Shown here: positions 14,208 through 31,138 of the stretch, one piece after another
Numbering within the stretch: position 1 is the first letter of the stretch
How the letters are laid out: each line of letters starts with the position of its first letter
Source of the DNA: Desulfobulbus sp.
Lineage (GTDB): Bacteria > Desulfobacterota > Desulfobulbia > Desulfobulbales > Desulfobulbaceae
Direction of reading: 5' to 3'
Length of the DNA stretch: 34,535 bases
Assembly: GCA_009778955.1 (NCBI GenBank)
Contig: WRFD01000003.1
Span: 1 to 34,535, forward strand
Translations under genes and position numbers: made by a program
Notes under the pieces: model-generated
The model's database searches: none
What the model was told of the DNA's origin: nothing
Seen by the model: the letters and a program-made list of their open reading frames with translations, nothing else

Positions 14208-14999
14208 TCAGAAGGTGTACATGATGCCTGCCGTCAGGCTCCGGGTCTGGGATCTACCCACCATGGGACTGTCCTGGATGTTGCCGCCAAGAAAGACGAT
14301 CTCGCCGCTGCAGAAGATATCCCAGGCGTCGGTGAGGCTGTGGCTCAGCGTGAGGCCGAGATACGGCGAACTCTCCCCGCCGGGATCATGGGGCGTAAGC
14401 CCGCTTTTGCTCGCCCCCTGGCCGCTTATCCCATAATAATAGCTGATATATCGGCTGTCCGACCAGTACACCCCGACCGTCGGTATGATCTCCAGCGGCC
14501 CGAATTCCATGGAATACGCATAGCTCAGCGCCCCATTCCAGCCGTTGCTGTTGCCCAGAATATCCCGGGCCGCGTTGGCGCGCAGCATGCCGTACGGGGT
14601 GGTCAGACGGACTTCCATGCCCGCCGCCACGCTGGCGTCCCTGTCATGCAGCAGGCGCAACTGGGCTTCAGATGTATCCGTGGCATTGAAGCTGGTGGCG
14701 TCATAGGCGCCGAAGATCGAGACTTCAAGAAAATCCAGATTGCAGATTTTCACTCCCACAGCGGTCCCCCTGATATACGCATAATCGCTGTCCAGATCGA
14801 TCATGGGCAAGGGGGTCCATTGGGTGTCATAGCGCTTGTAGGGCGCGAACGTCACGTTGCCGCCTATCCCAACGGCAACCTCGGCAGCGGTAGCCGTCTG
14901 GACAACGGCGGCCAGAAAAAACGCAACCAGCAACCCGACACGGTTCCCGGACTGCCCAAGGATAAAGGGGAGCAGGCGCAACGATGCGGATTGTTCCAT
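14208..14999 (-). CDS. MipA/OmpV family outer-membrane protein
   Basis: 263 aa, hydrophobic leader ending TATAAE, barrel pattern, YLGLTLSHSLTDAWDIFCSGEIVFLGGNIQDSPMVGRSQTRSLTAGIMYTF*; begins 1 nt after the regulator stop. Confidence 0.75.
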   Translation of the reverse strand: MEQSASLRLLPFILGQSGNRVGLLVAFFLAAVVQTATAAEVAVGIGGNVTFAPYKRYDTQWTPLPMIDLDSDYAYIRGTAVGVKICNLDFLEVSIFGAYDATSFNATDTSEAQLRLLHDRDASVAAGMEVRLTTPYGMLRANAARDILGNSNGWNGALSYAYSMEFGPLEIIPTVGVYWSDSRYISYYYGISGQGASKSGLTPHDPGGESSPYLGLTLSHSLTDAWDIFCSGEIVFLGGNIQDSPMVGRSQTRSLTAGIMYTF

Positions 15000-15000
15000 G

Positions 15001-16401
15001 TCAGACCAACTCCTTTTTATGGACGATGGCGATCCCAAGCTTTTTGATGCGATGCCAGATACTGCGCTCAGAGATCTGCAACAATTCAGCGGCCTTGACC
15101 TGCACCCCTCCCGCCTCTTCCAAGGCCTGCATGATGAGATGGCGCTCCATATCTTCCAGCCGCCGGGACAGGTCAAGGGGAAAGACCGTCCGCCCGGCAA
15201 CGGCGGCAGGGTCACGGGTCTCTTGGATATCGCCGGCAGCAAAGCCGGCTGCAAGCATTTCCGGCGTGATCGTGCCGCCAGGGGCGACAATGAACAACCG
15301 CTCGACGCGGTTCTCCAGTTCCCTGACATTACCGGGCCAGGAATAGACCTGCAGGGCCCGGAGAGCCTCTGGGGTGAAGAAGATGAGATTTTTGCCCATT
15401 TCAGTGGCGAATTTTTTGGCAAAGTGCTCGAGCAGAAGTGGAATGTCTTCGGGATGCTCCCGTAAAGGCGGCAGAGTGATAGGGTAGACGTTCAGGCGGT
15501 AGTAGAGGTCCTGGCGGAATCCTCCCCGGCTGATGGCCGCGGCCAGATCCTGGTTGGTCGCCGCGATGATGCGCACATCCACCTTGCGGGATGCGCTCGC
15601 GCCCACCGGCTCGACGGTTTTTTCCTGGATGCAGCGCAGGATCTTCGCCTGTAGCGATAAGGGCATGTCGCCGATTTCATCCAGGAAAAGGGTGCCGGAA
15701 TCGGCCTGGACAAAGCGTCCGGACCGGTTGGCAGTGGCGCCGGTGAAGGCCCCCTTGACGTGACCGAAGAGTTCGCTTTCCAGTAGAGATTCAGGGATGG
15801 CGGCGCAATTCACGGTGACGAACGGCGCCGAGGACCGGGGGCCGTTATAATGGATGGCCTTGGCCACCACCTCCTTGCCGGTGCCGGATTCTCCGGTAAT
15901 GAGCACGTTAGCGGCACTGGCGCTGACTTCGCGGATGCTCTGCCGCACAGCCTGGATCGCCAGGCTGTGGCCGATGAAATTCCGGTCGCTGAAGGTCTTG
16001 CCCAACTCCTGGCGCAACTGCTTGTTATCGGTGCTCAGCGCGTTGAAACGCAGGGCAAGGGCCACGGTCGCCTCAAGGGAGCCCAGATCAAAGGGTTTGA
16101 CGATATAGTCAAAGGCCCCTTCCTTGATGATCTCCACCGCAACCTTCAAGGCGGCATAGGCGGTCATGATCACCACCGGCAGCCCTGGTTCAAAACGCTT
16201 CACCTTTTCCAGAAGGTCGCGTCCGCTCAAGCCGGGCAGGCGCAAATCGCTGAGAACCAGGTGCACTTCCTGTTCCCGCAGCACCGCCAGCGCCTCCTCG
16301 ACAGAGGCTGCGGTAATGGGGTTGTAGCCCATATTTTCCAGGGCCACGGAAAGCACCTCCAGCAGTTTGGCCTCATCGTCGACAATCAGGATCGTCTGCA
16401 T
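15001..16401 (-). CDS. NtrC-family sigma-54-dependent response regulator
   Basis: Receiver (ILIVDDEAKLLEVL, VLSDLRLPGLSG), AAA+ with GESGTGKE and GAFTGA, C-terminal Fis-type HTH (VKAAELLQISERSIWHRIKKLGI). Confidence 0.95.
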   Translation of the reverse strand: MQTILIVDDEAKLLEVLSVALENMGYNPITAASVEEALAVLREQEVHLVLSDLRLPGLSGRDLLEKVKRFEPGLPVVIMTAYAALKVAVEIIKEGAFDYIVKPFDLGSLEATVALALRFNALSTDNKQLRQELGKTFSDRNFIGHSLAIQAVRQSIREVSASAANVLITGESGTGKEVVAKAIHYNGPRSSAPFVTVNCAAIPESLLESELFGHVKGAFTGATANRSGRFVQADSGTLFLDEIGDMPLSLQAKILRCIQEKTVEPVGASASRKVDVRIIAATNQDLAAAISRGGFRQDLYYRLNVYPITLPPLREHPEDIPLLLEHFAKKFATEMGKNLIFFTPEALRALQVYSWPGNVRELENRVERLFIVAPGGTITPEMLAAGFAAGDIQETRDPAAVAGRTVFPLDLSRRLEDMERHLIMQALEEAGGVQVKAAELLQISERSIWHRIKKLGIAIVHKKELV

Positions 16402-16424: not shown

Positions 16425-18155
16425 TCAACTGTTCAGGCAGACAGTGAAGGTTGTTCCCTGGCCGGGCACGCTCGTACAGGTGATGCTGCCGCCGTGCTCC
16501 TCAATGATGGCATAGGTCTTGGCCAGTCCCAGTCCTAACCCGCTTTTTTTGGTGGAAATGAACGGCAGGTGCATGGTGGACAGCAAGTCTTCCGGAATGC
16601 CCGTACCAGTATCCGCCACCTCAAGGCAGATCCGGTCCTGCGCTTCAGAGTGGTACAGCCGCACGGTCAGGCTGCCGCCTCCCGGCATGGCTTCCGCACT
16701 ATTCAGCACCAGATTGAGCAGGGCCTGGCGGATCTTGTTCTCCTCACCCAGAACACGCACCTCCTGAGCGTTGGGCGTGGCGTTGATGAATGAACAGGCA
16801 ATGCCTTTTGCCGTGAATTCAGCCGCGCTCAGCTCCAGCACATCCTGGGCCAGCGTATCGAGCCGGAAAACGGTCGGCGTAAAGGGAGTCGGCTTGGCAA
16901 AGGATAAAAACTCCGCAATGAGGCTGTCAATGCGGCCGACCTCTTCAATCGCCAGGCCCAGCAGCCGGGATTCCTTGCCATTCTCAGGCAGTTTGCCGTA
17001 CACCAGTTCGGCGGATGTCTTAATCACCAGCAGCGGGTTGCGAATCTCATGGGCAAAGCCCAGCGCTATTTCGCCCAACATGCGGGACCGCTCATGCCTG
17101 GCCGATTGCACGTTCTCGCGCTGCATGAGTTCCAGTTGCCCGGCCATGATGTTGAAGCTGTCGGAAAGTTCCGCAACCTCGTCGTTGCCTGATGGCGCGA
17201 CCCAGCCGGTGAAATTGCCGGAGGCAATTTCCCGGACACCCTCGTTCAATCGCCGTATGGGCCTGGTCAACCGTCGGGCCAACACATAGCCGATACAGCC
17301 GGACAACAGGATACCGCCGGCGAAGAAAGACCAGAACAACGTAAAATAGCCGAAATTGATGCCTTCGTCCGCAAGCAGGTGGGCGGAAACGACGAAAATC
17401 GCCAGAATGGCGCCCTGCTCGTTTCTTACCGGGGTCAGTAAAAAGTATTGGTCAGGCAGGCTGTCCGTCCAGTCGGCATTGGAAATGGCATACTCCGCGG
17501 CCCCGGCTTGCAGAGCCTCAATTGCGGCGGCAGGGAGCACATAGGGGGGGGCGGACGCTGAAGCGTATTCCTGCTGGAATCCCGAATCACCGGGCAGGAA
17601 TATGCGTAATTCCAGCGGCTCGGCGCTGCCGGACTCCGAAAGCCGAATACTGAACTGACTACCCAAATCCAGCCTACGCTCGCTACCGTCCTCTGCGGTT
17701 ATCATGCGCTGGACCACGATGATCAGTTCTTTTGCCCCGTTTTGCATGGTTGCCCAGTGGAACCTGCTGCCTGGAAAGAGCGGGGTTTCCGACAATGATT
17801 GCAGGGAAGGGGTGGCAAAGAGAATGCCCCCGGCCTGGTCCCGCAGCACAATGCAGTCGGCATCCACATTAGTCAGCGCTTCCAGCTCTTCAGGGGTAAA
17901 AGAAACGACCGGTTGAGCGAAACGCGGAGATAGTATGGTGTACGCGGCTGCTATCTCCGTTGCTGTTTCGTCAATGGTGTGAAACAGGTATTGGGAAGCC
18001 TCATGCAGCCAGCGCCCTATATTCTCGTTAGCCGTTTTATTCACCAGCCTTGTGGCTACATGGCTGGCCGCAAGCATCGGCAGGGCGGCCACCAGCATGA
18101 AGGCCAGCACCAGTTTGGTTGCCAGTGATTTTCTGAAATGATGCAAGGGGTTCAT
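16425..18155 (-). CDS. Membrane sensor histidine kinase (periplasmic sensor, HAMP, HisKA, HATPase)
   Basis: Two TM segments flanking a ~230 aa sensor region; RRLTRPIRRLNEGVREIASGNF (HAMP); GFAHEIRNPLLVIKTSAELV (H-box); NLVLNSAEAMPGGG, VADTGTGIPEDL, GLGLGLAKTYAIIEEHGG. Confidence 0.95.
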   Translation of the reverse strand: MNPLHHFRKSLATKLVLAFMLVAALPMLAASHVATRLVNKTANENIGRWLHEASQYLFHTIDETATEIAAAYTILSPRFAQPVVSFTPEELEALTNVDADCIVLRDQAGGILFATPSLQSLSETPLFPGSRFHWATMQNGAKELIIVVQRMITAEDGSERRLDLGSQFSIRLSESGSAEPLELRIFLPGDSGFQQEYASASAPPYVLPAAAIEALQAGAAEYAISNADWTDSLPDQYFLLTPVRNEQGAILAIFVVSAHLLADEGINFGYFTLFWSFFAGGILLSGCIGYVLARRLTRPIRRLNEGVREIASGNFTGWVAPSGNDEVAELSDSFNIMAGQLELMQRENVQSARHERSRMLGEIALGFAHEIRNPLLVIKTSAELVYGKLPENGKESRLLGLAIEEVGRIDSLIAEFLSFAKPTPFTPTVFRLDTLAQDVLELSAAEFTAKGIACSFINATPNAQEVRVLGEENKIRQALLNLVLNSAEAMPGGGSLTVRLYHSEAQDRICLEVADTGTGIPEDLLSTMHLPFISTKKSGLGLGLAKTYAIIEEHGGSITCTSVPGQGTTFTVCLNS

Positions 18156-18193
18156 GGGCGTCTCTCTGTCACAAGGGAATACCATCATTTTGT

Positions 18194-18217
18194 GCTGCAA
18201 GCTACATTTTTTGCAGC
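18194..18217. promoter_or_regulatory. Candidate upstream activator site (inverted repeat) for the NtrC-type regulator
   Basis: GCTGCAA-N10-TTGCAGC, centred about 145 bp upstream of the predicted sigma-54 transcription start. Confidence 0.35.
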
Positions 18218-18323
18218 TCGCCGATTGCAACTCGAAGACTCGTCAGCTGGTCAATCCTCAGACAGGATGCCTCTTTTATCGCTAGCAAGCGAACTTGTCC
18301 GGCATGCAACAGGAGTTCGCCAA

Positions 18324-18339
18324 TGGCACACGCCTTGCT
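18324..18339 (+). promoter_or_regulatory. Sigma-54 (-24/-12) promoter
   Basis: TGGCAC-ACGCC-TTGCT, near-perfect match to TGGCACG-N4-TTGCW with correct GG-to-GC spacing; adjacent to a divergent NtrC-type regulator. Confidence 0.82.
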
Positions 18340-18376
18340 ATACAGCCGACAAATTGTATACCAGCAGGCACACCAC

Positions 18377-19093
18377 ATGATCACGCAAAAGACAGCATCA
18401 GACCAGGGACCGGAAGATTGGCGCATTATCTGCGATTTTGACGGCACCATCACGCCCTTTGACGTGACAGACGCGCTCTTGCAGCGGTTCGCCCATCCTT
18501 CCTGGGAAGATGTGGAAGAGCAGTGGTTGGGCGGTAAGATCACCGCGCGGGAGTGCATGGACCGGCAGGTCCGGTTGCTCAATGTCCCACGCCATGTGCT
18601 GGATGGTTTTCTGGACACTGTTCCGGTGGTGGATGGTTTTGTGGACTTTGCGCACAACTGCGCGTCCCAAGGCATCAGTCTCACCGTGGTCAGCGACGGT
18701 CTAGACTACGCCATCAGGCGCATTCTCTCCCGGCATGGCGTAAGCGCCATGCCGATTATCGCCAATCGCCTGCGCTGCCTGGACGAATCCACATACCGGC
18801 TGGAATTTCCTTACGGTATAGCAGGATGCGCCTCCGGCGTGTGCAAGTGCGCAGTGGGCAAAGCCATGGGCGGCAAGATCCTGCTGATTGGCGACGGACA
18901 TTCCGACTGCTGCGTTGCCGGCGTGTCCGCATTGGTGTTGGCCAGACAAGGCAAAAAACTGCAACAACACTGCGAAACAGACGGCTATCCCCACCTGATC
19001 TTTGCGGATTTCCACGATGTCGCCACCTGCCTGGAAAAAATCACGCGGCATGCCCCTGCCGCAACCACGCCGGCGGAAGCCCGCGCGGCTTGA
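18377..19093 (+). CDS. HAD-IB family phosphatase (MtnX/SerB-like)
   Basis: IICDFDGTITPFDVTDALL (HAD motif I), VVSDGLDYAI, IGDGHSDCCVA; start at MITQKT placed downstream of the sigma-54 promoter (track start 18323 overlaps the promoter). Confidence 0.85.
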   Translation: MITQKTASDQGPEDWRIICDFDGTITPFDVTDALLQRFAHPSWEDVEEQWLGGKITARECMDRQVRLLNVPRHVLDGFLDTVPVVDGFVDFAHNCASQGISLTVVSDGLDYAIRRILSRHGVSAMPIIANRLRCLDESTYRLEFPYGIAGCASGVCKCAVGKAMGGKILLIGDGHSDCCVAGVSALVLARQGKKLQQHCETDGYPHLIFADFHDVATCLEKITRHAPAATTPAEARAA

Positions 19094-19144: not shown

Positions 19145-20536
19145 GTGAAACAACCCGCAGTTGACGAACAAGCACTGCTCCGTGAGGAAGCCCGATACTG
19201 CTCCCACGGAGACACCGTACACTATCTGGAACCGCCCAAGCTGTTCACCGGCTGTGCCGGTTCTTTTCTATACGATGCCAACGATACGCCCTATCTGGAC
19301 TTGCAGATGTGGTATTCGGCTGTGAACTTCGGCTATGGCAACGAGCGCTTGAACAATGCCTTGAAGCGCCAGATCGACACCCTACCGCAGGTTGCCTCGC
19401 AATATCTGCATAGGGAAAAAGTGGAGCTGGCGGCCATACTGTGCAGGGCCATGAAAAAGATCTGGGACGAGGACGGTCGCGTGCATTTCAATGTGGGCGG
19501 CTCCCAGTCCATTGAAGATTCACTGAAACTGGTTCGCAACGCCAGCAAGGGCAAAAGTCTGATGCTGGCCTTTGAGGGCGGCTACCACGGTCGTACCCTG
19601 GGAGCTTCGGCCATCACCTCGTCCTACCGCTACCGCAGGCGGTACGGACATTTTGGCGACCGGGGCCTGTTTATTCCCTTCCCCTACTGCTTCCGCTGCC
19701 CGTACAAGAAACGTCGCGATGACTGCGAACTGTACTGCTTAAGCCAGTTTGAGCGGTTATTTGAAACAGAATATTATGGCCTGTGGGACCCCAAGGCGCC
19801 CGGCGGCGGCGAGGCCGAATACGCCGCCTTCTATATCGAGTGCATCCAGGGCACCGGTGGCTATGTGATTCCCCCCAAAGACTACTACCCCAGATTCAAG
19901 CGGATTCTGGAGGAGCGCAATATCCTGTTGGTGGACGATGAGATCCAGATGGGCTTTTACCGCACCGGCAAGCTCTGGGGGCTTTCGAACTTCGGGATAA
20001 AGCCGGACGTGGTGGTCTTCGGCAAGGCCATGACCAATGGGCTCAACCCCCTGGCCGGCATCTGGGCGCGCGAGGCGCTCATCAATCCCCAGGTCTTCCC
20101 CTGCGGCTCCACCCATTCCACGTTTGCCAGCAACCCGCTGGGCACGGCTGTGGCCTTGGAAACCATGCAGATGCTGGCTGAAGGCGACTATGAACAAAGC
20201 GTGAACCAACAGGGGGCCTATTTTCTCAGCGGACTGCGGGAACTTCAATCCCGCTACCCGATCATCGGCGATGTGGATGGGCTAGGGCTGGCGCTGCGAG
20301 CGGAGATTTGCGCCGCCGACGGCTTCACCCCCGACAAGGCCATGCTGGACCGCATCGTGGATGAAGGCATCAAGGGCGACATCGAAGTTGACGGCAAAAC
20401 CTATGGCCTGGTGCTGGACGTGGGCGGCTATTACAAGAACGTCATCACCTTTGCCCCCTCTTTGCACATCACGCGGGAGGAAATCGATCTGGCCATGCGC
20501 CTGCTCGATGAACTTCTGCGCCGGGTCACGCGGTAA
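19145..20536 (+). CDS. Class III (acetylornithine/GABA-type) PLP-dependent aminotransferase
   Basis: AFEGGYHGRTLGASAIT, ILLVDDEIQMGFYRTGKLWG, DVVVFGKAMTNGLNPLAG; GGA AGC RBS region upstream. Confidence 0.93.
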   Translation: MKQPAVDEQALLREEARYCSHGDTVHYLEPPKLFTGCAGSFLYDANDTPYLDLQMWYSAVNFGYGNERLNNALKRQIDTLPQVASQYLHREKVELAAILCRAMKKIWDEDGRVHFNVGGSQSIEDSLKLVRNASKGKSLMLAFEGGYHGRTLGASAITSSYRYRRRYGHFGDRGLFIPFPYCFRCPYKKRRDDCELYCLSQFERLFETEYYGLWDPKAPGGGEAEYAAFYIECIQGTGGYVIPPKDYYPRFKRILEERNILLVDDEIQMGFYRTGKLWGLSNFGIKPDVVVFGKAMTNGLNPLAGIWAREALINPQVFPCGSTHSTFASNPLGTAVALETMQMLAEGDYEQSVNQQGAYFLSGLRELQSRYPIIGDVDGLGLALRAEICAADGFTPDKAMLDRIVDEGIKGDIEVDGKTYGLVLDVGGYYKNVITFAPSLHITREEIDLAMRLLDELLRRVTR

Positions 20537-20552: not shown

Positions 20553-21470
20553 ATGCAAGGTATCGAACAGAGCGGCCATTTTTTTCCCGGCAGTCGGACC
20601 GGCATCCTGCTGGTGCACGGCCTGACCGGCACGCCCATGGAAATGCTCAGTGTGGCCAAGCGCCTGAACAAGTACGGCTTCACCGTATCCTGCCCAGTGC
20701 TGGCCGGACACTGCGGCACGGAACAAGACCTCCTGGCCACCCGCTGGCGAGACTGGGCGGCCAGCGCGGAACAGGCGCTGCTGCGGCTGCGGGAGCACTC
20801 GGACGTGACCTTTGTGGGCGGGTTGTCCGCCGGAGCCGTGCTCAGTCTGTATCTGGCGGACCTCTACCCCTCCCTGGTGCGTGGCATGGCCCTGTATTCA
20901 ACCACCCTGACCTGGGACGGATGGAGCATCCCCAAGCTCAGTTTCCTGTTGCCCCTGGTCTTGCGCCTGCCGTATGTCGGCAAGCGTTACCATTTTACGG
21001 AAACCTTTCCCTATGGCATAAAAAATGAACATCTGCGCCGGCGCATCGTGGCCAAGCTGAAGAGCGGCGACACCGCCACCGCCGGCCACACCCATACGCC
21101 GGGCGTCATTGTCCGGGAACTGTGGCGCATGGTGGATGCGGTGAAAGAGAAATTTCCGTCCATCAGGACGCCGGCTCTGATTGTGCACGCCGACAACGAC
21201 GATATCGCCGGGCTGCGCAAAAACGCCCTGTACATGCAACGCCGCCTGGCCGGCCCCACGGAACTGCTCAGGCTGTACGACAGCTACCACATGGTCACTG
21301 TGGACCAGGAACGGCACCTGGTGGCCGACGCCACGGCCCGCTTCTTCCAAGGCCACCTGGAAACGGAAGAGTACGCGGAACTGACCGCGGCCGCCAAGGA
21401 GCCCGTACCCGTTCCGCCAGAAGATGCAAACCGCCGGAATGCGCGCTCGGCGGTTGCGGAGCCGGCATGA
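20553..21470 (+). CDS. Alpha/beta-fold hydrolase (carboxylesterase/Est30-like)
   Basis: GILLVHGLTGTPMEMLSVAKRL, FVGGLSAGAVLSLYLA (nucleophile elbow GLSAG), IVHADNDDI, catalytic His region SYHMVTVDQERHLV. Confidence 0.88.
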   Translation: MQGIEQSGHFFPGSRTGILLVHGLTGTPMEMLSVAKRLNKYGFTVSCPVLAGHCGTEQDLLATRWRDWAASAEQALLRLREHSDVTFVGGLSAGAVLSLYLADLYPSLVRGMALYSTTLTWDGWSIPKLSFLLPLVLRLPYVGKRYHFTETFPYGIKNEHLRRRIVAKLKSGDTATAGHTHTPGVIVRELWRMVDAVKEKFPSIRTPALIVHADNDDIAGLRKNALYMQRRLAGPTELLRLYDSYHMVTVDQERHLVADATARFFQGHLETEEYAELTAAAKEPVPVPPEDANRRNARSAVAEPA

Positions 21471-21826
21471 CGGCGCTGGCTGTCTTCCTTTGGATGCTGA
21501 ACATGTCCATGGACACCTTCGGACACCTGGCCTTCAAGGCCGCGGCCGGCCATGGCCTTGACCTGGACGCCTTCAGCCATTGGAAGCACATGGCTCGCAG
21601 CCCCTGGCTCTGGGCTGGGGTTATCTGCTACACCGGCGAATTCTTTGTCTGGGCGGCCTTTTTGTCGCAGGTGCCCCTAGCCGCCGGGGTGATGCTCGGC
21701 TCGATCAACATCGTGGTCCTGATGATCGCCGGGCGGCTGGTGTTCAAGGAATGCCTCACGGCCTGGCGCATGGCTGGCATGCTGCTGATCACCGCCGGCG
21801 TTATTCTGGTGGGACTTGGCGTATGA
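21467..21826 (+). CDS. SMR/EamA-type small membrane transporter subunit 1
   Basis: 119 aa, four hydrophobic segments; ATGA overlap with the preceding gene; AAGVMLGSINIVVLMIAGRLVFKECLTAWRMAGMLLITAGVILVGLGV. Confidence 0.8.
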   Translation: MTALAVFLWMLNMSMDTFGHLAFKAAAGHGLDLDAFSHWKHMARSPWLWAGVICYTGEFFVWAAFLSQVPLAAGVMLGSINIVVLMIAGRLVFKECLTAWRMAGMLLITAGVILVGLGV

Positions 21827-22239
21827 AGCGGTTCTATCTGATCGGTTTTTTGTGCTTGATGGCCTCGGACACCCTGGCGCAGATCTGCTTCAAATTCGCT
21901 GGTACGGCTGCCGAGCCGCTGGCGTTCGATGTGGACTGGGTGCTGCGGATTGCGACAAGCCCCTGGTCGTATGGCGCGATGGTCGGATATTTATGTTCCT
22001 TTGTCTCCTGGATGACCCTGCTGCGCTACGCGCCCATCGGTCCCGCCTTTGCCGCCTCGCACCTGGAGTTGGTCACTGTGACCATTTTTTCCGTCTGGCT
22101 CTTCCATGAGCCGCTCACCCTGTCCAAGATGGCAGGCGGCCTGTTGATTGTGCTCGGAGTGCTCTGCCTTGCCAAAGGTGAAAGCGTCGTCGGAGAAGAA
22201 CATGGACAGGATGCCGCCCAAGGCGAGAGTCGGGCGTGA
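21823..22239 (+). CDS. SMR/EamA-type small membrane transporter subunit 2
   Basis: 138 aa, four hydrophobic segments; ATGA overlap; APIGPAFAASHLELVTVTIFSVWLFHEPLTLSKMAGGLLIVLGVLCLA. Confidence 0.8.
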   Translation: MKRFYLIGFLCLMASDTLAQICFKFAGTAAEPLAFDVDWVLRIATSPWSYGAMVGYLCSFVSWMTLLRYAPIGPAFAASHLELVTVTIFSVWLFHEPLTLSKMAGGLLIVLGVLCLAKGESVVGEEHGQDAAQGESRA

Positions 22240-23446
22240 ACTGCCGCCCACGGCAGGATTGCCCCTGACCTGGAGCGATTATCTGCACAAGCCCGGCCTG
22301 TCTTTTGCCGAAGGCCTTACGCAATGGCCCGGCCTGCCGGACCCGATCATGACCTGTTCCGGCACCGCCGCTCTGGTGGTCGCCCTGAAGACCCTGCACC
22401 AACGCCACCCGAACAGGAATGCCGTCATTGCGCCCGCCTACAACTGCCCCCTGGTGCCTCTGGCCACATGCCTGGTTTCTGGTTTGCGCGCCATCGCTTG
22501 CGATACCGTTGCCGGCGGCAGCGATCTTGACCTGCAACAATTAGACAGCCTGTGCGATGAGCGCACCCTGGCCGTCATCCCCACTCACCTGGGCGGCCGC
22601 GTGGCGGATGTCCGGGCGGCCCAGGCTGTTGCCGAGCGGTACGGCGCTTTTGTCATCGAAGACGCGGCCCAAGCCCTCGGGGCCTTCGCGGAAGAGGACC
22701 AGACCGTCGGCTTGCGGGGTGATGTCGGTTTTTTCAGCCTGGCGGCCGGCAAGGGTCTGACCACCTACGAAGGCGGCATCCTGGTCAGCCGCGACCCCCA
22801 ACTGCGGGTGGAACTGGCGGCCGTGGCGAGAAAGACGCTGCGACCCGATCTGGGCTGGACCCTACGCCGCAACCTGGAACTGCTGGGGTATGGGCTGTTG
22901 TACACCCCCTCCGGCCTCCGGCTGGCCTATGGACGCAACCTGCGCAAACACTTGGATGCGGGCGACGAGGCCACGGCGGTGGGCGATGTCTTCACCCTGG
23001 CGGACATACCCCTGCACAGCCTGGATGCGTTGCGCTTGCGCGTGGCGGCCAACGGACTGTTCCGCCTGCCCAGCTTTCTGGAAGAAGGGCGTTGGCGGGC
23101 CATGCGCCGACGCGGGCAACTGGCCGAACTGCCCGGCGTCTTGGTCATTGGCGATCGTCCGGGAACAAACGGGGCATGGCCCTTCTTCATGGTGCTCATG
23201 CCCGGCAAAGGGCAACGGGACCGCGCCCTGCACACCCTTTGGCGTTCCGGCAACGGCGTGTCCAAGCTCTTTGCCCATGCCTTGCCGGACTATCCATTTA
23301 TGGCCCCGATCCTGGCGGGACACGACTCACCGGGCTACCCCAACGCACGGGACCTGGCAGACAGATTGCTCACCGTCTCCAACACCCATTGGCTGGATAA
23401 CGCCACCTTCACCCTGATCGTCCAAGCCTTGAGGAGCAGCCTGTGA
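22202..23446 (+). CDS. DegT/DnrJ/EryC1/StrS-family PLP aminotransferase-like protein
   Basis: CSGTAALVVALKTL, VIAPAYNCPLVPLA, GAFVIEDAAQALGA, GDVGFFSLAAGKGLTTYEGGILVS (PLP Lys region). Confidence 0.88.
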   Translation: MDRMPPKARVGRELPPTAGLPLTWSDYLHKPGLSFAEGLTQWPGLPDPIMTCSGTAALVVALKTLHQRHPNRNAVIAPAYNCPLVPLATCLVSGLRAIACDTVAGGSDLDLQQLDSLCDERTLAVIPTHLGGRVADVRAAQAVAERYGAFVIEDAAQALGAFAEEDQTVGLRGDVGFFSLAAGKGLTTYEGGILVSRDPQLRVELAAVARKTLRPDLGWTLRRNLELLGYGLLYTPSGLRLAYGRNLRKHLDAGDEATAVGDVFTLADIPLHSLDALRLRVAANGLFRLPSFLEEGRWRAMRRRGQLAELPGVLVIGDRPGTNGAWPFFMVLMPGKGQRDRALHTLWRSGNGVSKLFAHALPDYPFMAPILAGHDSPGYPNARDLADRLLTVSNTHWLDNATFTLIVQALRSSL

Positions 23447-24519
23447 GCTCGAATGCGCCTGTCGCCTTCCGCAATTTGCCGGAGCCTTCGGCCTTGCCCG
23501 GGCTGTTTGTCCAGCATCCGCCGCAGGACTTTGCCTGCCGCTCAGACAGGCTGGGCCTACCGGTTTTTACAACCAGCTTCGATCTGCTGACCACCTTGGA
23601 ACCCACCGCCCGCCGCCGCCTGACCAAACTCCCCTTATTCCGCGCTTGGTCAAGGTTGTTGAGGCTGCACACCTGTTTCGCCGGGACCACCATCACCGAA
23701 TATGCGCCGCTGCCGCCAAACCTTGCGCCGGAAGCCGTCATCGACAATCTGCTTTCAGAACATGCGGCTGGCCACACCCTGACCATCCTCAAGGATTTGC
23801 CCAACGGTTCGCCCCTCTTGCCGGAAGAGGACAACGCCTTTGCCGATAGGCTGGCCGCCCTGGCGGCGGGTAGAGGGTTCATCGAGGTGGAAGGCCAGGC
23901 CCTGGCCTATGTGCGCATTGACTTTGCGGACAGCGGCGAATACCTGGGCAGGCTCTCATCGGGTCGCAGAAAGGATGTGCGCCGCAAGCTGAAAAAGCGG
24001 TCCGCGCTTCAGGTGGAAACAGTGCGCCTGGGGGATGGGCGGTTTGTCGATCCCACCTTTCTGGAAGAGATGTACGCCATGTACCTGGATGTTTTTGCGC
24101 AAAGCGAGATCCAGTTCGACCTGCTCAGTCTGGAATTTTTTTCGGCCCTGCTGCAACACCCTGAAATCGAAGGCGTGGTCTTCCTGTACCGGCATGGGCA
24201 ACAGCTTGCCGGGTACAATATCTGCCTGATCCAAAACGGCATGTTGATCGACAAGTATGTGGGCTTCACCTATCCGCTGGCGCGGGAACTGAACCTGTAT
24301 TGCATCAGTTGGATGGAGAACCTGGAATTCGCCCTGGGGAACGGCCTGCACACCTACATCGCGGGCTGGACCGACCCCTTGGTCAAGGCGAGCCTGGGGG
24401 CCTCGTTCACCTTTACCCGGCACCTGGTCTGGGTGCGCAATCCCCTGTTGCGGAGCATTCTCCGCCCCCTACGACGCTTTTTCGAGTCCGACGGCCAGAT
24501 GATGCGGGGTGCGGCATGA
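23443..24519 (+). CDS. GNAT/FemAB-like N-acyltransferase
   Basis: GTG start with GTGA overlap; RLSSGRRKDVRRKLKKRS, GVVFLYRHGQQLAGYNICLIQNGMLIDKYVGFTYPLARELNLYCISWMENLEFALGNGLHTYIAG. Confidence 0.75.
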   Translation: MSSNAPVAFRNLPEPSALPGLFVQHPPQDFACRSDRLGLPVFTTSFDLLTTLEPTARRRLTKLPLFRAWSRLLRLHTCFAGTTITEYAPLPPNLAPEAVIDNLLSEHAAGHTLTILKDLPNGSPLLPEEDNAFADRLAALAAGRGFIEVEGQALAYVRIDFADSGEYLGRLSSGRRKDVRRKLKKRSALQVETVRLGDGRFVDPTFLEEMYAMYLDVFAQSEIQFDLLSLEFFSALLQHPEIEGVVFLYRHGQQLAGYNICLIQNGMLIDKYVGFTYPLARELNLYCISWMENLEFALGNGLHTYIAGWTDPLVKASLGASFTFTRHLVWVRNPLLRSILRPLRRFFESDGQMMRGAA

Positions 24520-25460
24520 ACGAAGGCCCGGAAAAGACAAAGCAGGCAAGGAACGGGCTGATATGGCCGGACATGGCGCGGCCGGTAATTCTGGATTTCG
24601 ACGACTCTGGGCCGCCGCTGTCGCCGGATACACTGCGCATCCCCTTGAGCGATTGGCAGGAGTCCATCCGTTTCGGCTGCACCCTACGGAATTATGCGGC
24701 CCTGGCCAGCCGCCTGGACGGACTGATGCCGCTGGAATGCGGCTGCGTGTTCACCGGCAGCGGCGATTATCACCACCTTTCCCTGTATCTGCTCAGGCGT
24801 CTAGCCCGACACAGAGACCTTGTCCCAGGCTGCCTGGATGTTGTAGTCTGCGACAACCATCCAGACAACATGCGCTATCCCTTCGGCCTGCACTGCGGTT
24901 CTTGGGTGCGCCACGCCGTAGCGCTTGCCTGCGTCCGCCATATCCACGTCATCGGCATCACCTCGGCGGACATCACCCTTGCCCATGCCTGGGAAAATTA
25001 TCTTGCACCCTTTGTGCGGAAAAAACTCTTCTATTGGAGCGTGGGCCGCCGGGCCGCCTGGCTGGGACTGTTGGGCAGAAGGGCCCACTCCAGAAGTTTC
25101 GATTCAGCCGGCGAGCTTGTGGCAGCATTCACGCCTGTGGCGCGGGACAGCGGCTGCCTGTACCTGTCTATCGACAAGGATGTACTCAGCCCGGCGGTGG
25201 CGCGCACCACCTGGGACCAGGGCGTTTTCGGGCTGGAGGATCTTGAAATGGTGATCCGGGCTTGCTCCGGCAAACTGGCCGGGGCCGACATCACCGGGGA
25301 TGTTTCGGCTTATGCCTATGGCGGAGTTTTCAAGCGCCTGTTATGCCGCCTGGACGGACAACGAGGCCTGGACGCGGCAACATCGGCATCATGGCAAAAG
25401 GTGCAGCTGGCGGTGAATGCGCGTCTGCTGGCACTGCTGCGTCAGACGATGTCCGTATAA
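24516..25460 (+). CDS. Arginase/ureohydrolase-fold family protein
   Basis: Candidate metal-ligand motifs GSGDYHH, VVVCDNHPDNM (D-x-H-x-x-D like), YLSIDKDVLSPA (D-x-D); ATGA overlap with preceding gene. Confidence 0.72.
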   Translation: MNEGPEKTKQARNGLIWPDMARPVILDFDDSGPPLSPDTLRIPLSDWQESIRFGCTLRNYAALASRLDGLMPLECGCVFTGSGDYHHLSLYLLRRLARHRDLVPGCLDVVVCDNHPDNMRYPFGLHCGSWVRHAVALACVRHIHVIGITSADITLAHAWENYLAPFVRKKLFYWSVGRRAAWLGLLGRRAHSRSFDSAGELVAAFTPVARDSGCLYLSIDKDVLSPAVARTTWDQGVFGLEDLEMVIRACSGKLAGADITGDVSAYAYGGVFKRLLCRLDGQRGLDAATSASWQKVQLAVNARLLALLRQTMSV

Positions 25461-25749: not shown

Positions 25750-26190
25750 ATGCTTGCCAGTTCCTCCTTGACCGGCCTTTTCCTGGCCTCGTTTCTGGCC
25801 GCCACCATTCTGCCGATGCAGTCGGAAGCGATCCTGGTCGGGCTGCTCCTCACCGGCGACTATCCGGTTTTCGCGCTGCTGGTCGTGGCAAGCTGCGGCA
25901 ATATCCTCGGCTCGGCGTGCAACTGGTGGTTGGGCCGGCACGTCGAGCGATACCGCCATTGCTCCTGGTTTCCGGCGAGCGAGCAGCGGCTGCATCAGAC
26001 CCAACAGTGGTACCGGCGCTATGGCAGGTGGTCGCTGCTGTTGTCTTGGGCGCCGATCATCGGCGACCCGCTCACCGTTGCCGCGGGCATCATGCGCGAG
26101 CCCCTGCCGGTTTTCCTCCTGATCGTCAGCATTGCCAAAGCCGGACGCTACCTGATCCTGGCGGCCGCCACCCTGAACTGGCTCTCCTGA
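25750..26190 (+). CDS. YqaA-family (DedA/SNARE-like) membrane protein
   Basis: MLASSSLTGLFLASFLAATILPMQSEAILVGLLL, GNILGSACNWWLGR, FVPIIGDPLTVAAG-like WAPIIGDPLTVAAGIMR. Confidence 0.88.
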   Translation: MLASSSLTGLFLASFLAATILPMQSEAILVGLLLTGDYPVFALLVVASCGNILGSACNWWLGRHVERYRHCSWFPASEQRLHQTQQWYRRYGRWSLLLSWAPIIGDPLTVAAGIMREPLPVFLLIVSIAKAGRYLILAAATLNWLS

Positions 26191-26241: not shown

Positions 26242-27282
26242 CTATTGCGCCGGCCCTGACGGCTGCCCCCCGGCCGGGATCGGGGAAGGCTCGATCGAGG
26301 ATGACTGCACAGGCGTCTTGACCCGCACCAGAGAAGAACGGGACGCACTTTTCAATTCGTCCACCTGCCAGCCGTCAACCCGGAACAACTGCCCCTGGTT
26401 GGACACCTTGAGCACCAACGACGGGTCAGCCGGAAGCGCCGGCGCCGCATCCTTCTTTACCGGTTGCGCCGGCTTCGGCGGCTGACCGAAGACATATTCG
26501 ACAACCATACCGTTGTCGAGTTCCACAGTACACTTCAGCTCCGGGGTGGACAGACCGTATTCAGGCTTGGCCTCGGCGCCGAGAAGGCCGTTGACCATCA
26601 GGCCTGCAAGCCGGTTGACCAGGGCGTCGCGCCGCTCCTTGACCACCTCTTCATCGGGCGCAAGATCGGATGGTTGCAGGCCGTCCTGCCCCCGTTCCAA
26701 GCGCAGGCCGGGCAATTCGATCCGCTTGATCTGCTCGGGCTTAAGTTGGAGGATCCTAGAGTCGATCCAACTGTCGGTCCTGACCTCAAGGTCGTGCTGG
26801 GACAAGGACAGGGACTGAATTTCAGGATCGTTGTCGGCCCTGAGATAGATCTTGCGCAGGCCGGGCGAGGTGCCGAAGTAAAGGATCGCCAGCGCGGTCC
26901 CATCCTTGAGCAGATTCAGCTTGCGGACATACCGGTCCGGCGCCACCTTGAAGCGGGCGGCCGCCTCGGCGGTGGTAGCCTCAGGCCAGCCGCGCTCCAT
27001 GCTGACCAATTGGTCGATCAGGTCCTGCACCCTGGCTGAGTCCGCCGGAAACGACCCGGCCTCAGGCAACAGCCATCGGTCCTTGTCCTTTTTCAGCGCC
27101 AGGTGGCGCCCTTCGCCATCTTCGAGCAGCACCTCGTTGACATCGGCCGCCTTGAAGGCGAGCAAGGCTCCCTTTTCCGGTCGCGCCGTCCCGGTGCGGT
27201 CGATGAAGCGGGTCGCCAACAACAGCCCGATCTGCACCAGCAGCAGGATCAAGCACCCCCAAATCAGTCGTTTCATGGTCAT
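26242..27282 (-). CDS. DUF4340 domain-containing protein
   Basis: N-terminal TM, KDRWLLPEAGSFPADSARVQDLIDQLVSM, LAILYFGTSPGLRKIYLRADND; overlaps the GldG gene stop. Confidence 0.85.
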   Translation of the reverse strand: MTMKRLIWGCLILLLVQIGLLLATRFIDRTGTARPEKGALLAFKAADVNEVLLEDGEGRHLALKKDKDRWLLPEAGSFPADSARVQDLIDQLVSMERGWPEATTAEAAARFKVAPDRYVRKLNLLKDGTALAILYFGTSPGLRKIYLRADNDPEIQSLSLSQHDLEVRTDSWIDSRILQLKPEQIKRIELPGLRLERGQDGLQPSDLAPDEEVVKERRDALVNRLAGLMVNGLLGAEAKPEYGLSTPELKCTVELDNGMVVEYVFGQPPKPAQPVKKDAAPALPADPSLVLKVSNQGQLFRVDGWQVDELKSASRSSLVRVKTPVQSSSIEPSPIPAGGQPSGPAQ

Positions 27283-30209
27283 GCCCTCCCGGCGACCAAC
27301 ATAAGTTCACGCCGCCGCGACCTGGTCTGGATCGTCCGGTGCAGCCCCCAGACGATCAACAGGCCGACAGCTGCCAGACCGTAGTTGAGATACTCCCACC
27401 GCATCCGTTCCGCCTTGTCCATGGGCAGCAGGGTCCGGGCGAAGTGGCCGCGGCCCCGGATGGAAAGCAGATCGCGGTCCTCCAACGACCAGTCGATGCA
27501 GTTGGCCACCAGTTGCAGCGGGTTGAGATAGCGGCTGCCGCTGGCTCCGGAGGCCAGATCGAGGCTGGTGTCGGCCAGAAAGGTATTGGATGCCAGCAGA
27601 ATGATCCGGGCCGAATCCGACGACCGGTCCAGCACCCGGCCGATCACTTCGGGCCGGGCTTGCTCCGCCTCGGCGTCCTTGCCATTTTTGGGGTCGGATT
27701 GGGCGGCAGCCTGCCGTTTTTTCTCCTTTTCGGCCTGCTGATTTGCCTCCTCGATCAGAGGCGAAGTCTTGCCCTTGAACCAGGAATCAAAGCCGCCTTC
27801 CACCATCATCGCCAGCAACTGCCGACCAACGGGTTCACCTTGGGCAAAGCCGGCCTGGCCGTACTGGTTGAAATCGGGCTGAATATCTATGGAATCGGAC
27901 AGCCAGGCCTCTTGCGAACTCTCCAACAGCCGCACCACCCTCCGGCCCTTGTCCTGCCCGCCGTCTACCTTGATCGGCGAGGCCCAGGTCATGGACAATT
28001 GGTCAATGCCGGTGAGCAGGCCGCTGTCCCGATTCATGCCATCATTCCTGATGTCAATGAAATAGGGATAGTTGAGCAGATGGGTCTCGCGGATGGTGAG
28101 GCCGCCGGCTTGGCGCTCCACCGGCACCGGAAAGGCGGCATTCTGCGGGTCGAGCACCAGGGTCGACTCCATCTTGATGCCGTAGCTGGCCAGCCAGTCG
28201 CCGAGGCCGCTTTTCTTTTCCTCGGCGCTGATCCGCCCTTGGAGACTCACGTCAAAGGGTGCGGTGGCCAGGACCACGGTGCCGCCCTGCATGAGGAACT
28301 GATCGATGGCAAACACCTGTTTTTCCTGAAGCCGTTCAGGGGCGACCACCACCAGGATGTCTGCCTCCGGGTCCACCTGTCCGGCGCTCAAATCAACGGG
28401 TTTGACCCGGTGTTCCTCTGCAATGAAGTTGTGCAGGAATTGAAAGGTGTTGCCCTGGCTGGGCATGCCGAATTGGGCCATGTCCGGATTGGCCTGAGGC
28501 GTGTACAGGGCCACGGTCCTGAGCATGCCCTTGGAGAAACGCTTCAGCCCGGCGGTGATGGCGGCTTTCAGCGCCGCCTTGTCCAGGGCCGTGGGCAGGG
28601 CAACCTGCACCTGCTGGCCGCCGCTCTCCAAGATCATGTAGAACCAAAACGTCTGGGGCGACAACAGGTCGGCCACCATCGGCCGCATGCCTAATTCCTT
28701 GCCCAACCGCTCGGCAAGTTGGCCGCCGCCTCCATCGGGGTCAACAAAATCGATGGCCAGCTTATCGCCGGCCTGCTGCTTGAAATCGGCCAGGACCGCG
28801 TCCAGTGACTTTTTCAATTCGACCAATTGCTGCGGCAGCCTGGCATCGGGCGAGAAATAGCCGTGGAACACCACCGGCCCATTGATGGCCGCAAAGAGGT
28901 TACCGCCGCCCTGATAGCTGTAGAGCACTTTCTTGATTGCCCGGGTGATGTCGTGCTCCGGGTTGCGGAGCTCCACCTCCAATTTGGTGTCGCCCTCGCT
29001 CTTAATCTCGATCAGATCCCGGAAGCCGAGGGTGACAAACTCGTCGCCATACTTGACCAGGATATCGAAATAGGAGTTGGTGACCGCAGTCTGGTAGCGG
29101 GAAGCGGTCTGAAAAGGAACGGGGCGGATGGAATATTTTTCACCAGCCTCCTGCTCCAATTCCGGCTTTTCCTGGGGATCGACGAATTCGACCTTAACCT
29201 TGCCCTCGCCGGCCACCTCGTACTCACGCAGCAAATCGCGCAGTTGTGGCTGCAAAGGGGCAAGGAGCGGATGGGTCTGGGCTGAAAAATAGCCGCGAAT
29301 CAGCAGCGGCTCCTGCAACCGCGCCAGATAGGATCGGGTGGCAGGTGAAATCGAATAGATGCGGCCCTGGGTCAGATCGGCGCGCAGCATGCCCAGCGGC
29401 GCCAGCCACAGGTTCAACAAAAAAAAGTTGGCCACCAGCAGCCCGGTCAGTGTCCGCCAGCGGCGGTGCGCGCTGTTGGCCGGGTTTCCGGCCCATCGCT
29501 GCCGTTCCAGGGTGTAGACGTTGAGGGACAGGAAAATGCCGGTCAGACTCAGGTAGTAGGCTAGGTCGCGCAGGTCGATCACCCCCCGGGTAATGGAGGC
29601 GAACCGGGAACCGGCGCCGATCAGTTTGAGCATGTCCCCGACCTGACTGCCGAACAAGGAGGTCAGGGTGTTGGCCCCCACCAGGTAGAGCACGGTGCAA
29701 ACCAAGGTGGTGACGATCAGGCTGACGATCTGGCTGTTGAACTGGGCGCTGACAAAAAGGCCGATGGCAAGATAGGCCCCAGCCAGGCACAGACTGGCGA
29801 GATAGCCGCCAAAGACCGGCCCCCAGTCGAGCTGACCGAGCCGTGAAATGGTAATGGGCAGGGGCAGTGTCAACAGCAGGCCGATGGCGACCAGGCCGAG
29901 GCAGGCCACGAACTTGCCGCCGACCAGGGTCGGCAGCCCCACCGGTGCGGTCAGAAGCGGCTCCAGGGTGCCGGCCCGGTGCTCCTCCGACCAGACCCGC
30001 ATGGTGATGGCGGCCGAAAGAAAAATCAGCAGCAACGGCATCCACTCGAACATCAGCCGTACATCGGCGATATTGCGACTGAAAAAGGTTTCAACCCAGA
30101 AAAAGATGAACAGAGTGGCGGCAAGAAAGGCGCCAAAAAAGATGAAGGCAGCGGGCGTGGCGAAAAAGACGGCCAACTCCCGGCGGGCGACCTTGCGCAG
30201 GGTGTTCAT
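27279..30209 (-). CDS. Fused ABC-2 permease (GldF-like) and auxiliary GldG-like protein
   Basis: 976 aa: six-TM permease with SEEHRAGTLEPLLTAPV, then the GldG-type domain (YSISPATRSYLARLQEPLLIRGYFSAQTHPLLAPLQPQLRDLLREY..., LVVVAPERLQEKQVFAIDQFLMQGGTVVLATAPFD). Confidence 0.9.
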   Translation of the reverse strand: MNTLRKVARRELAVFFATPAAFIFFGAFLAATLFIFFWVETFFSRNIADVRLMFEWMPLLLIFLSAAITMRVWSEEHRAGTLEPLLTAPVGLPTLVGGKFVACLGLVAIGLLLTLPLPITISRLGQLDWGPVFGGYLASLCLAGAYLAIGLFVSAQFNSQIVSLIVTTLVCTVLYLVGANTLTSLFGSQVGDMLKLIGAGSRFASITRGVIDLRDLAYYLSLTGIFLSLNVYTLERQRWAGNPANSAHRRWRTLTGLLVANFFLLNLWLAPLGMLRADLTQGRIYSISPATRSYLARLQEPLLIRGYFSAQTHPLLAPLQPQLRDLLREYEVAGEGKVKVEFVDPQEKPELEQEAGEKYSIRPVPFQTASRYQTAVTNSYFDILVKYGDEFVTLGFRDLIEIKSEGDTKLEVELRNPEHDITRAIKKVLYSYQGGGNLFAAINGPVVFHGYFSPDARLPQQLVELKKSLDAVLADFKQQAGDKLAIDFVDPDGGGGQLAERLGKELGMRPMVADLLSPQTFWFYMILESGGQQVQVALPTALDKAALKAAITAGLKRFSKGMLRTVALYTPQANPDMAQFGMPSQGNTFQFLHNFIAEEHRVKPVDLSAGQVDPEADILVVVAPERLQEKQVFAIDQFLMQGGTVVLATAPFDVSLQGRISAEEKKSGLGDWLASYGIKMESTLVLDPQNAAFPVPVERQAGGLTIRETHLLNYPYFIDIRNDGMNRDSGLLTGIDQLSMTWASPIKVDGGQDKGRRVVRLLESSQEAWLSDSIDIQPDFNQYGQAGFAQGEPVGRQLLAMMVEGGFDSWFKGKTSPLIEEANQQAEKEKKRQAAAQSDPKNGKDAEAEQARPEVIGRVLDRSSDSARIILLASNTFLADTSLDLASGASGSRYLNPLQLVANCIDWSLEDRDLLSIRGRGHFARTLLPMDKAERMRWEYLNYGLAAVGLLIVWGLHRTIQTRSRRRELMLVAGRA

Positions 30210-31138
30210 TGTTCCCTTCCTCCAGTCATGTTGATTTCACTGAATATTTTTTCCAAATTACGCGTTTCGGGGGCAAGGCCATACAGGGGCCGTCCCTGAT
30301 TGACCAGGGCGGCGGCCACCAAGGGCGCAAGGTCGTGCGCGGCCATGGCGCCGGAGACGGCATAGCAACATCGGCCGCTTTCGGCGGGCAGGGCCTCGAC
30401 CGCGCCCACCCCTTCCACTCCGGCGAGCAGGGCATCGGCCCCGGCCTGACGGTCGGTTGTCACCAGCAGTCGCTGTCCGGCGCCCAGTTCGGCCAGGCGG
30501 GCATCCACAACCTTGCGGCCGCGCTGGATGATGATCACCCGGTCGCAGACCGCCTGCACCTCCTGGAGAATATGGGTCGAGATCAGCAGGGTCGATTTCT
30601 GGGCCAAATCCCTGAGCAGGCCGCGCATGTGCTGAATCTGGGTGGGGTCGAGGCCGTTGGTGGGTTCGTCGAGAATGAGCATTTTCGGACGATGCAGGAT
30701 AGCCTGGGCCACGCCGACCCGCTGGCGGTAACCGCGCGACAGGGTGGCGATTTGCTGCCCGGCCTTGTCGGTCAGCGCGGTCCACTCCAGGGTCTCGCGC
30801 AACAGCGGTCCCATGCGGTCAGCCTCGACCTCGTGCAGGATCGCCTGGTACTCGAGGTAGCCCGCCACGGTCATTTCCGGATAAAGCGGGCAATTTTCCG
30901 GCAGATAGCCGATAAGCGACTGGATGGCGCGCCGGTTACCGACCATTTTCAGATCATTGATCCGGATGGCGCCGCCAGTCGGTTCGAGAAAGCCGGTCAG
31001 CATTTTCATGATTGTGGTTTTGCCGGCCCCGTTATGGCCGAGAAGGCCGACAATTTCGCCGGCGCCAATGGTAAAAGAGACATCATCGACCGCGATATGC
31101 GGTCCATAAGTTCGAGTCAGATGGTCGACTAGGATCAT
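30206..31138 (-). CDS. ABC transporter ATP-binding protein (GldA-like)
   Basis: GLLGHNGAGKTTIMKMLTG (Walker A), LSRGYRQRVGVAQAILHRPKMLILDEPTNGLDP; AGGAG RBS. Confidence 0.95.
   Translation of the reverse strand: MILVDHLTRTYGPHIAVDDVSFTIGAGEIVGLLGHNGAGKTTIMKMLTGFLEPTGGAIRINDLKMVGNRRAIQSLIGYLPENCPLYPEMTVAGYLEYQAILHEVEADRMGPLLRETLEWTALTDKAGQQIATLSRGYRQRVGVAQAILHRPKMLILDEPTNGLDPTQIQHMRGLLRDLAQKSTLLISTHILQEVQAVCDRVIIIQRGRKVVDARLAELGAGQRLLVTTDRQAGADALLAGVEGVGAVEALPAESGRCCYAVSGAMAAHDLAPLVAAALVNQGRPLYGLAPETRNLEKIFSEINMTGGREQ

Follow-up and report, generated by a model that had tools for sequence, protein, structure and literature searches.

What switches on the operon that begins with a HAD-family phosphatase gene in this Desulfobulbus sp., and what does this operon make? 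The window analysed, i.e. the whole stretch of 34,535 nucleotides, contains a divergon in which the genes of a sensor kinase, a response regulator and a MipA-type protein face those of the phosphatase, an aminotransferase, a hydrolase, two ArnE/F-like proteins, a DegT-type protein, a FemAB-like protein and an arginase-like protein, in this order (Table 1). The reading favoured here, with a probability of about 0.6, is that the adjacent NtrC-type two-component system acts via sigma-54 on an uncharacterised envelope-modification operon, and that both sides of the divergon are controlled from the intergenic region between them.

Table 1. Genes of the divergon and elements of its intergenic region, with positions in the window.
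Feature	Position	Strand	Remark
MipA/OmpV outer-membrane protein family	14208-14999	-	start adjoins the response regulator stop
NtrC-family response regulator (REC, AAA+ with GAFTGA, Fis-type HTH)	15001-16401	-	
Sensor histidine kinase (HAMP, HisKA, HATPase_c)	16425-18155	-	
First inverted repeat of the first-pass annotation, GCTGCAA-N10-TTGCAGC	18194-18217		present; as a repeat not kept in G004
Near-palindrome AGCTACATTTTTTGCAGCT, candidate regulator site	18200-18218		centre about -141; kept in G004 and in the G004 copy upstream of arnB
GACAGGATGCC block	18261-18271		identical in G000, G004 and the arn-side copy of G004
Second inverted repeat of the first-pass annotation, GCGAACT-N18-AGTTCGC	18289-18320		present; ends just upstream of -24
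Predicted sigma-54 -24/-12 promoter element TGGCACACGCCTTGCT	18324-18339	+	predicted start near 18350
HAD-IB (MtnX-like) phosphatase, first operon gene	18377-19093	+	
Class III PLP aminotransferase	19145-20536	+	
Alpha/beta hydrolase	20553-21470	+	
EamA/SMR-type small membrane protein (ArnF-like)	21467-21826	+	
EamA/SMR-type small membrane protein (ArnF/ArnE-like)	21823-22239	+	
DegT/DnrJ/EryC1/StrS aminotransferase-like protein	22202-23446	+	
FemAB-like / GNAT acyltransferase	23443-24519	+	
Arginase-superfamily protein, D/H motifs kept	24516-25460	+	

The two small ArnE/F-like proteins, whose NCBIfam matches stand below the library cut-offs, and the DegT-type protein give the operon a likeness to an Arn operon, which it nevertheless is not, as domain searches found no ArnA, ArnC, ArnD or ArnT family in it and the genome has a separate true arn operon on contig C58. 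In the arginase-like protein GSGD.HH, D.HPD and SIDKD are kept in 7/7 aligned sequences, and residues of this kind bind metal in the arginase family. Some of the set is carried by four of the 23 genomes of the genus, the genome of the window (G000) included: in G004 the kinase, regulator and MipA genes and the full operon are syntenic, and in G007 and G016 pieces of them are found, cut by contig ends. Convergent with the operon, on the minus strand at 26242-31138, the genes of a DUF4340 protein, a large permease-like protein and an ABC ATPase stand in a row that we take to resemble the gliding-type (Gld) transporter sets. A VTT/DedA-type membrane protein is encoded after the operon on the same strand (25750-26190), with no match in the G004 contig; in Burkholderia, the modification of lipid A depends on a DedA protein (PMC7835334).

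A search of 395 genomes of the phylum found the aminotransferase in 14, with an E value of 1e-120 or lower, G000 and G004 among them; the other 12 together with G119 gave the 13 loci examined outside the genus. Twelve of these loci have the HAD gene and 11 the hydrolase, while at least one of the two SMR proteins is encoded in 5 and the FemAB and arginase-like genes are present in 4; the absences say little, because the scan covered some of the neighbouring genes and certain contigs, such as L072 and L084, are short. An OmpR-type regulator with a HAMP-HisKA-HATPase kinase is encoded near the core in 4/13 (L081, L021, L083, L089), with regulator, kinase, MipA, FemAB and arginase-like genes in a single row in L081, and regulators of this type may control the related clusters elsewhere in the phylum. 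ArnT-like PMT_2 proteins are encoded at L083, L087 and L089, ketosynthases at L083, L085 and L087, and a sulfatase-domain protein at L086. From the literature, a two-component system adjoins mipA in most of the loci screened by the authors (PMC10936184), CarR acts on almE and ompV (PMC9178039), and MipA/OmpV has been connected with polymyxin or defensin responses that run through two-component systems (PMC10936184, PMC9178039). From the genes it contains, the surroundings of some related clusters and this MipA link, the locus is read as an envelope-modification response, and the uncharacterised cluster probably alters the cell surface.

The alternative that survives best, possible although the odds are against it, accepts the promoter and takes the operon to make or export a small amine metabolite, with the SMR pair as a pump. 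The aminotransferases, the phosphatase, the hydrolase and the SMR proteins would fit such a role, SMR proteins can also act as drug pumps, and the operon itself has no glycosyltransferase; however, the ArnT-like proteins, ketosynthases and OmpR-type systems near some of the related clusters, and the association with MipA, argue for a modification of the envelope.

As to the proposed regulator of this predicted envelope-modification operon, the first-pass annotation had seen a divergent kinase and an NtrC-type protein with an intact GAFTGA loop, and the domains found agree with it: the kinase is a membrane one, and the regulator has the full domain set of the NtrC type, with GAFTGA at residues 217-222 (15736-15753). 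The loop differs among species, since the regulator orthologue of G016 (L024:1418-2815) has GAFTDA; the same change in NorR, G266D, frees that protein from its signal domain (PMC2941729). A response of the kinase to a periplasmic signal, proposed earlier, is plausible because of the kinase layout; the AlphaFold model of the sensor, with a mean pLDDT of 42.5, is too poor for its fold to be read. The CarSR and ParRS regulators are of OmpR type, whereas the regulator here is of NtrC type and paired with a sigma-54 element, and the operon enzymes differ from the Alm and Arn enzymes. The locus resembles CarSR-almEFG/ompV of Vibrio and ParRS-mipBA/arn of Pseudomonas (PMC9178039, PMC10936184) in that a two-component system, a protein of the MipA/OmpV type and genes for envelope modification would belong to a single response. 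Divergent pairs of an NtrC-type regulator and a sigma-54 promoter are also described for Desulfovibrio vulgaris, e.g. DVU3142-ohc and DVU2956-DVU2957 (PMC4641369); these have other genes and one-component regulators, in contrast to the predicted pair of this locus, whose regulator is a two-component one accompanied by its kinase and MipA.

It is quite unlikely that the sigma-54 promoter is real but served by another NtrC-type protein, the neighbouring system controlling only itself and MipA: the best-kept intergenic block (18155-18219) adjoins the kinase start and could be the kinase's own promoter or operator, but G004 has the same divergent arrangement, and in D. vulgaris most co-located regulators were assigned to the sigma-54 promoter next to them (PMC4641369).

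The proposed link between the adjacent system and the operon is the -24/-12 element, which had been recognised earlier as a sigma-54 consensus with the right GG/GC spacing and is here confirmed at the same position. TGGCACACGCCTTGCT fits the pattern TGGCACR-N4-TTGCW in full, scores 11/12 against TGGCACG-N4-TTGCW and has GG and GC at the fixed 10-base spacing inside TGGCAC-N5-TTGC; the D. vulgaris consensus is given as tGGcacg / tTGCt (PMC4641369). It is the single match of TGGCACRN4TTGCW in its own genome (2,660,121 bases), where the looser TGGY-N7-TTGCW gives 153 matches vs 71 of the control, so that loose matches by themselves carry little weight. A second near-match, on contig C39, falls within a reading frame that resembles an ABC transporter gene and was taken as chance. 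An RpoN DNA-binding domain is encoded on contig C176, and no terminator was found in 18100-18450. Sigma-54 has been linked in general terms to lipid and lipopolysaccharide genes (PMC3162934).

Orthologues of the HAD gene at 70% identity or more were found in G004 and G007 among the 145 genomes searched, and at the same place as TGGCACACGCCTTGCT they have TGGCACACGTCTTGCT and TGGCATGCGCCTTGCT, respectively. The element, for which lack of conservation in orthologues would have been fatal, is thus kept in 2/2 orthologous regions surviving in the assemblies, both relatives being of the same genus. Its exact shared form occurs in 3/23 genus genomes (G000, G004, G007), each time upstream of the HAD gene, with the pattern drawn from these same three genomes, so that this is a concordance rather than an independent discovery; some match at no more than 1 mismatch is found in 15/23. 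A chance match, with a housekeeping promoter driving the operon, is very improbable: a control with the pattern reversed matches just as often in the genome (1 match), but 13/16 promoter columns are identical in the alignment of the three species vs 16/46 ungapped flanking non-coding columns, which drift (Fisher P 0.0015), a score of 11/12 is reached in just 0.4% of the cases when the intergenic region is dinucleotide-shuffled 5000 times, and no sigma-70-like promoter was found in 18100-18450. The same relatives bear on the translation start, for which the first-pass annotation had preferred ATG 18377 to the longer start at 18323 in the open reading frame track: the latter is in frame in G000, out of frame in G004 and meets a stop in the corresponding frame of G007, which supports 18377.

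Upstream of the HAD gene outside the genus, the best score was at most 7/12 in 10 of the 11 loci compared (L072 and L084 left out), and sigma-54 control thus looks specific to the genus of the window, with L087 as a possible exception. At L087, which belongs to another family, TGGCGATCGCCTTGCT, some 96 bases ahead of the HAD start (6975), scores 9/12 and may be a sigma-54 site.

Where the regulator would bind is less clear-cut, and the earlier proposal of two inverted repeats as its sites stands in part. Both repeats are present, although near chance, since 7-base inverted repeats occur in shuffled sequence with P 0.196 for at least one and 0.064 for at least two (1000 shuffles). The first was rejected in the form proposed, its arms in G004 being GCAGCAA and TTGTAGC, which no longer match; the second keeps 5/7 pairs there (GCGGA / TCCGC), changes in one arm being matched in the other, and has no counterpart in the paralogous copy of this control region that G004 carries. 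A better candidate site, resting on one orthologue and one decayed paralogue, is the dyad AGCTACA-N5-TGYAGCT, which overlaps the first repeat and has 6/7 pairs in G000 and a perfect form, AGCTACA-N5-TGTAGCT, in G004, where one perfect 7-base repeat is not rare in itself (20% of shuffles). With up to 3 mismatches allowed, the dyad was found 2 times in G000 and 3 times in G004, vs 2 and 6 in the control. A 3-mismatch match on contig C175, considered as a second target in the own genome, was taken as chance after its surroundings were viewed by eye. The distance from dyad to promoter is about 107 bases, a layout near the usual range for D. vulgaris (PMC4641369).

The paralogous copy in G004 is decayed: it has the dyad with 1 mismatch (C8:53501-53519, i.e. 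L095:2002-2020), sits 427 bases upstream of arnB in an operon of arnB, C, A, D, T and an ArnF-like gene, has lost the -12 part and, by eye, looks to contain a 3' remnant of the HAD gene. No dyad site was found upstream of the arn operon on C58 in the 243 bases present in the assembly, nor between lptF and arnB of G016. Because of the lost -12 part and of these two arn operons having no such site, the copy may be a relic only.

In the favoured reading, control by the adjacent NtrC-type system, the kinase would sense an envelope signal and phosphorylate the regulator, which would bind upstream, most likely at the dyad and perhaps at 18289-18320 too, and spend ATP on opening the sigma-54 polymerase poised at the -24/-12 element. 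The operon, predicted to be RpoN-dependent, would thereby be switched on and would most likely make and flip an amine-bearing, lipid-linked group altering the outer envelope, like the Arn and Alm modifications, with MipA, encoded alongside the regulator, as the outer-membrane partner of the response. A literature search found, in titles and abstracts, no description of arn or lipid A modification being under sigma-54, no pairing of MipA with sigma-54 and NtrC by title, and nothing relevant on the lipid A of sulfate reducers.

A wider picture is speculative and rather unlikely as a whole: an undescribed envelope-lipid modification pathway would extend across several families of the phylum, with a core of HAD phosphatase, class III aminotransferase and alpha/beta hydrolase and, in part, ketosynthase, SMR flippases, DegT, FemAB and an arginase-like deacylase; in one genus, its OmpR-type control would have given way to a sigma-54 promoter and a two-component system of the NtrC type, and a sister species would once have acquired a copy of the same control region ahead of arn, so that a single switch served two surface modifications. 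The locus itself is a clear candidate for a sigma-54 divergon, linking an uncharacterised cluster that several families of the phylum have to a two-component system of the MipA type. If the favoured reading is true, sigma-54 would stand in here for the OmpR-type control of surface modification, and the cluster would point to a modification pathway still to be worked out.
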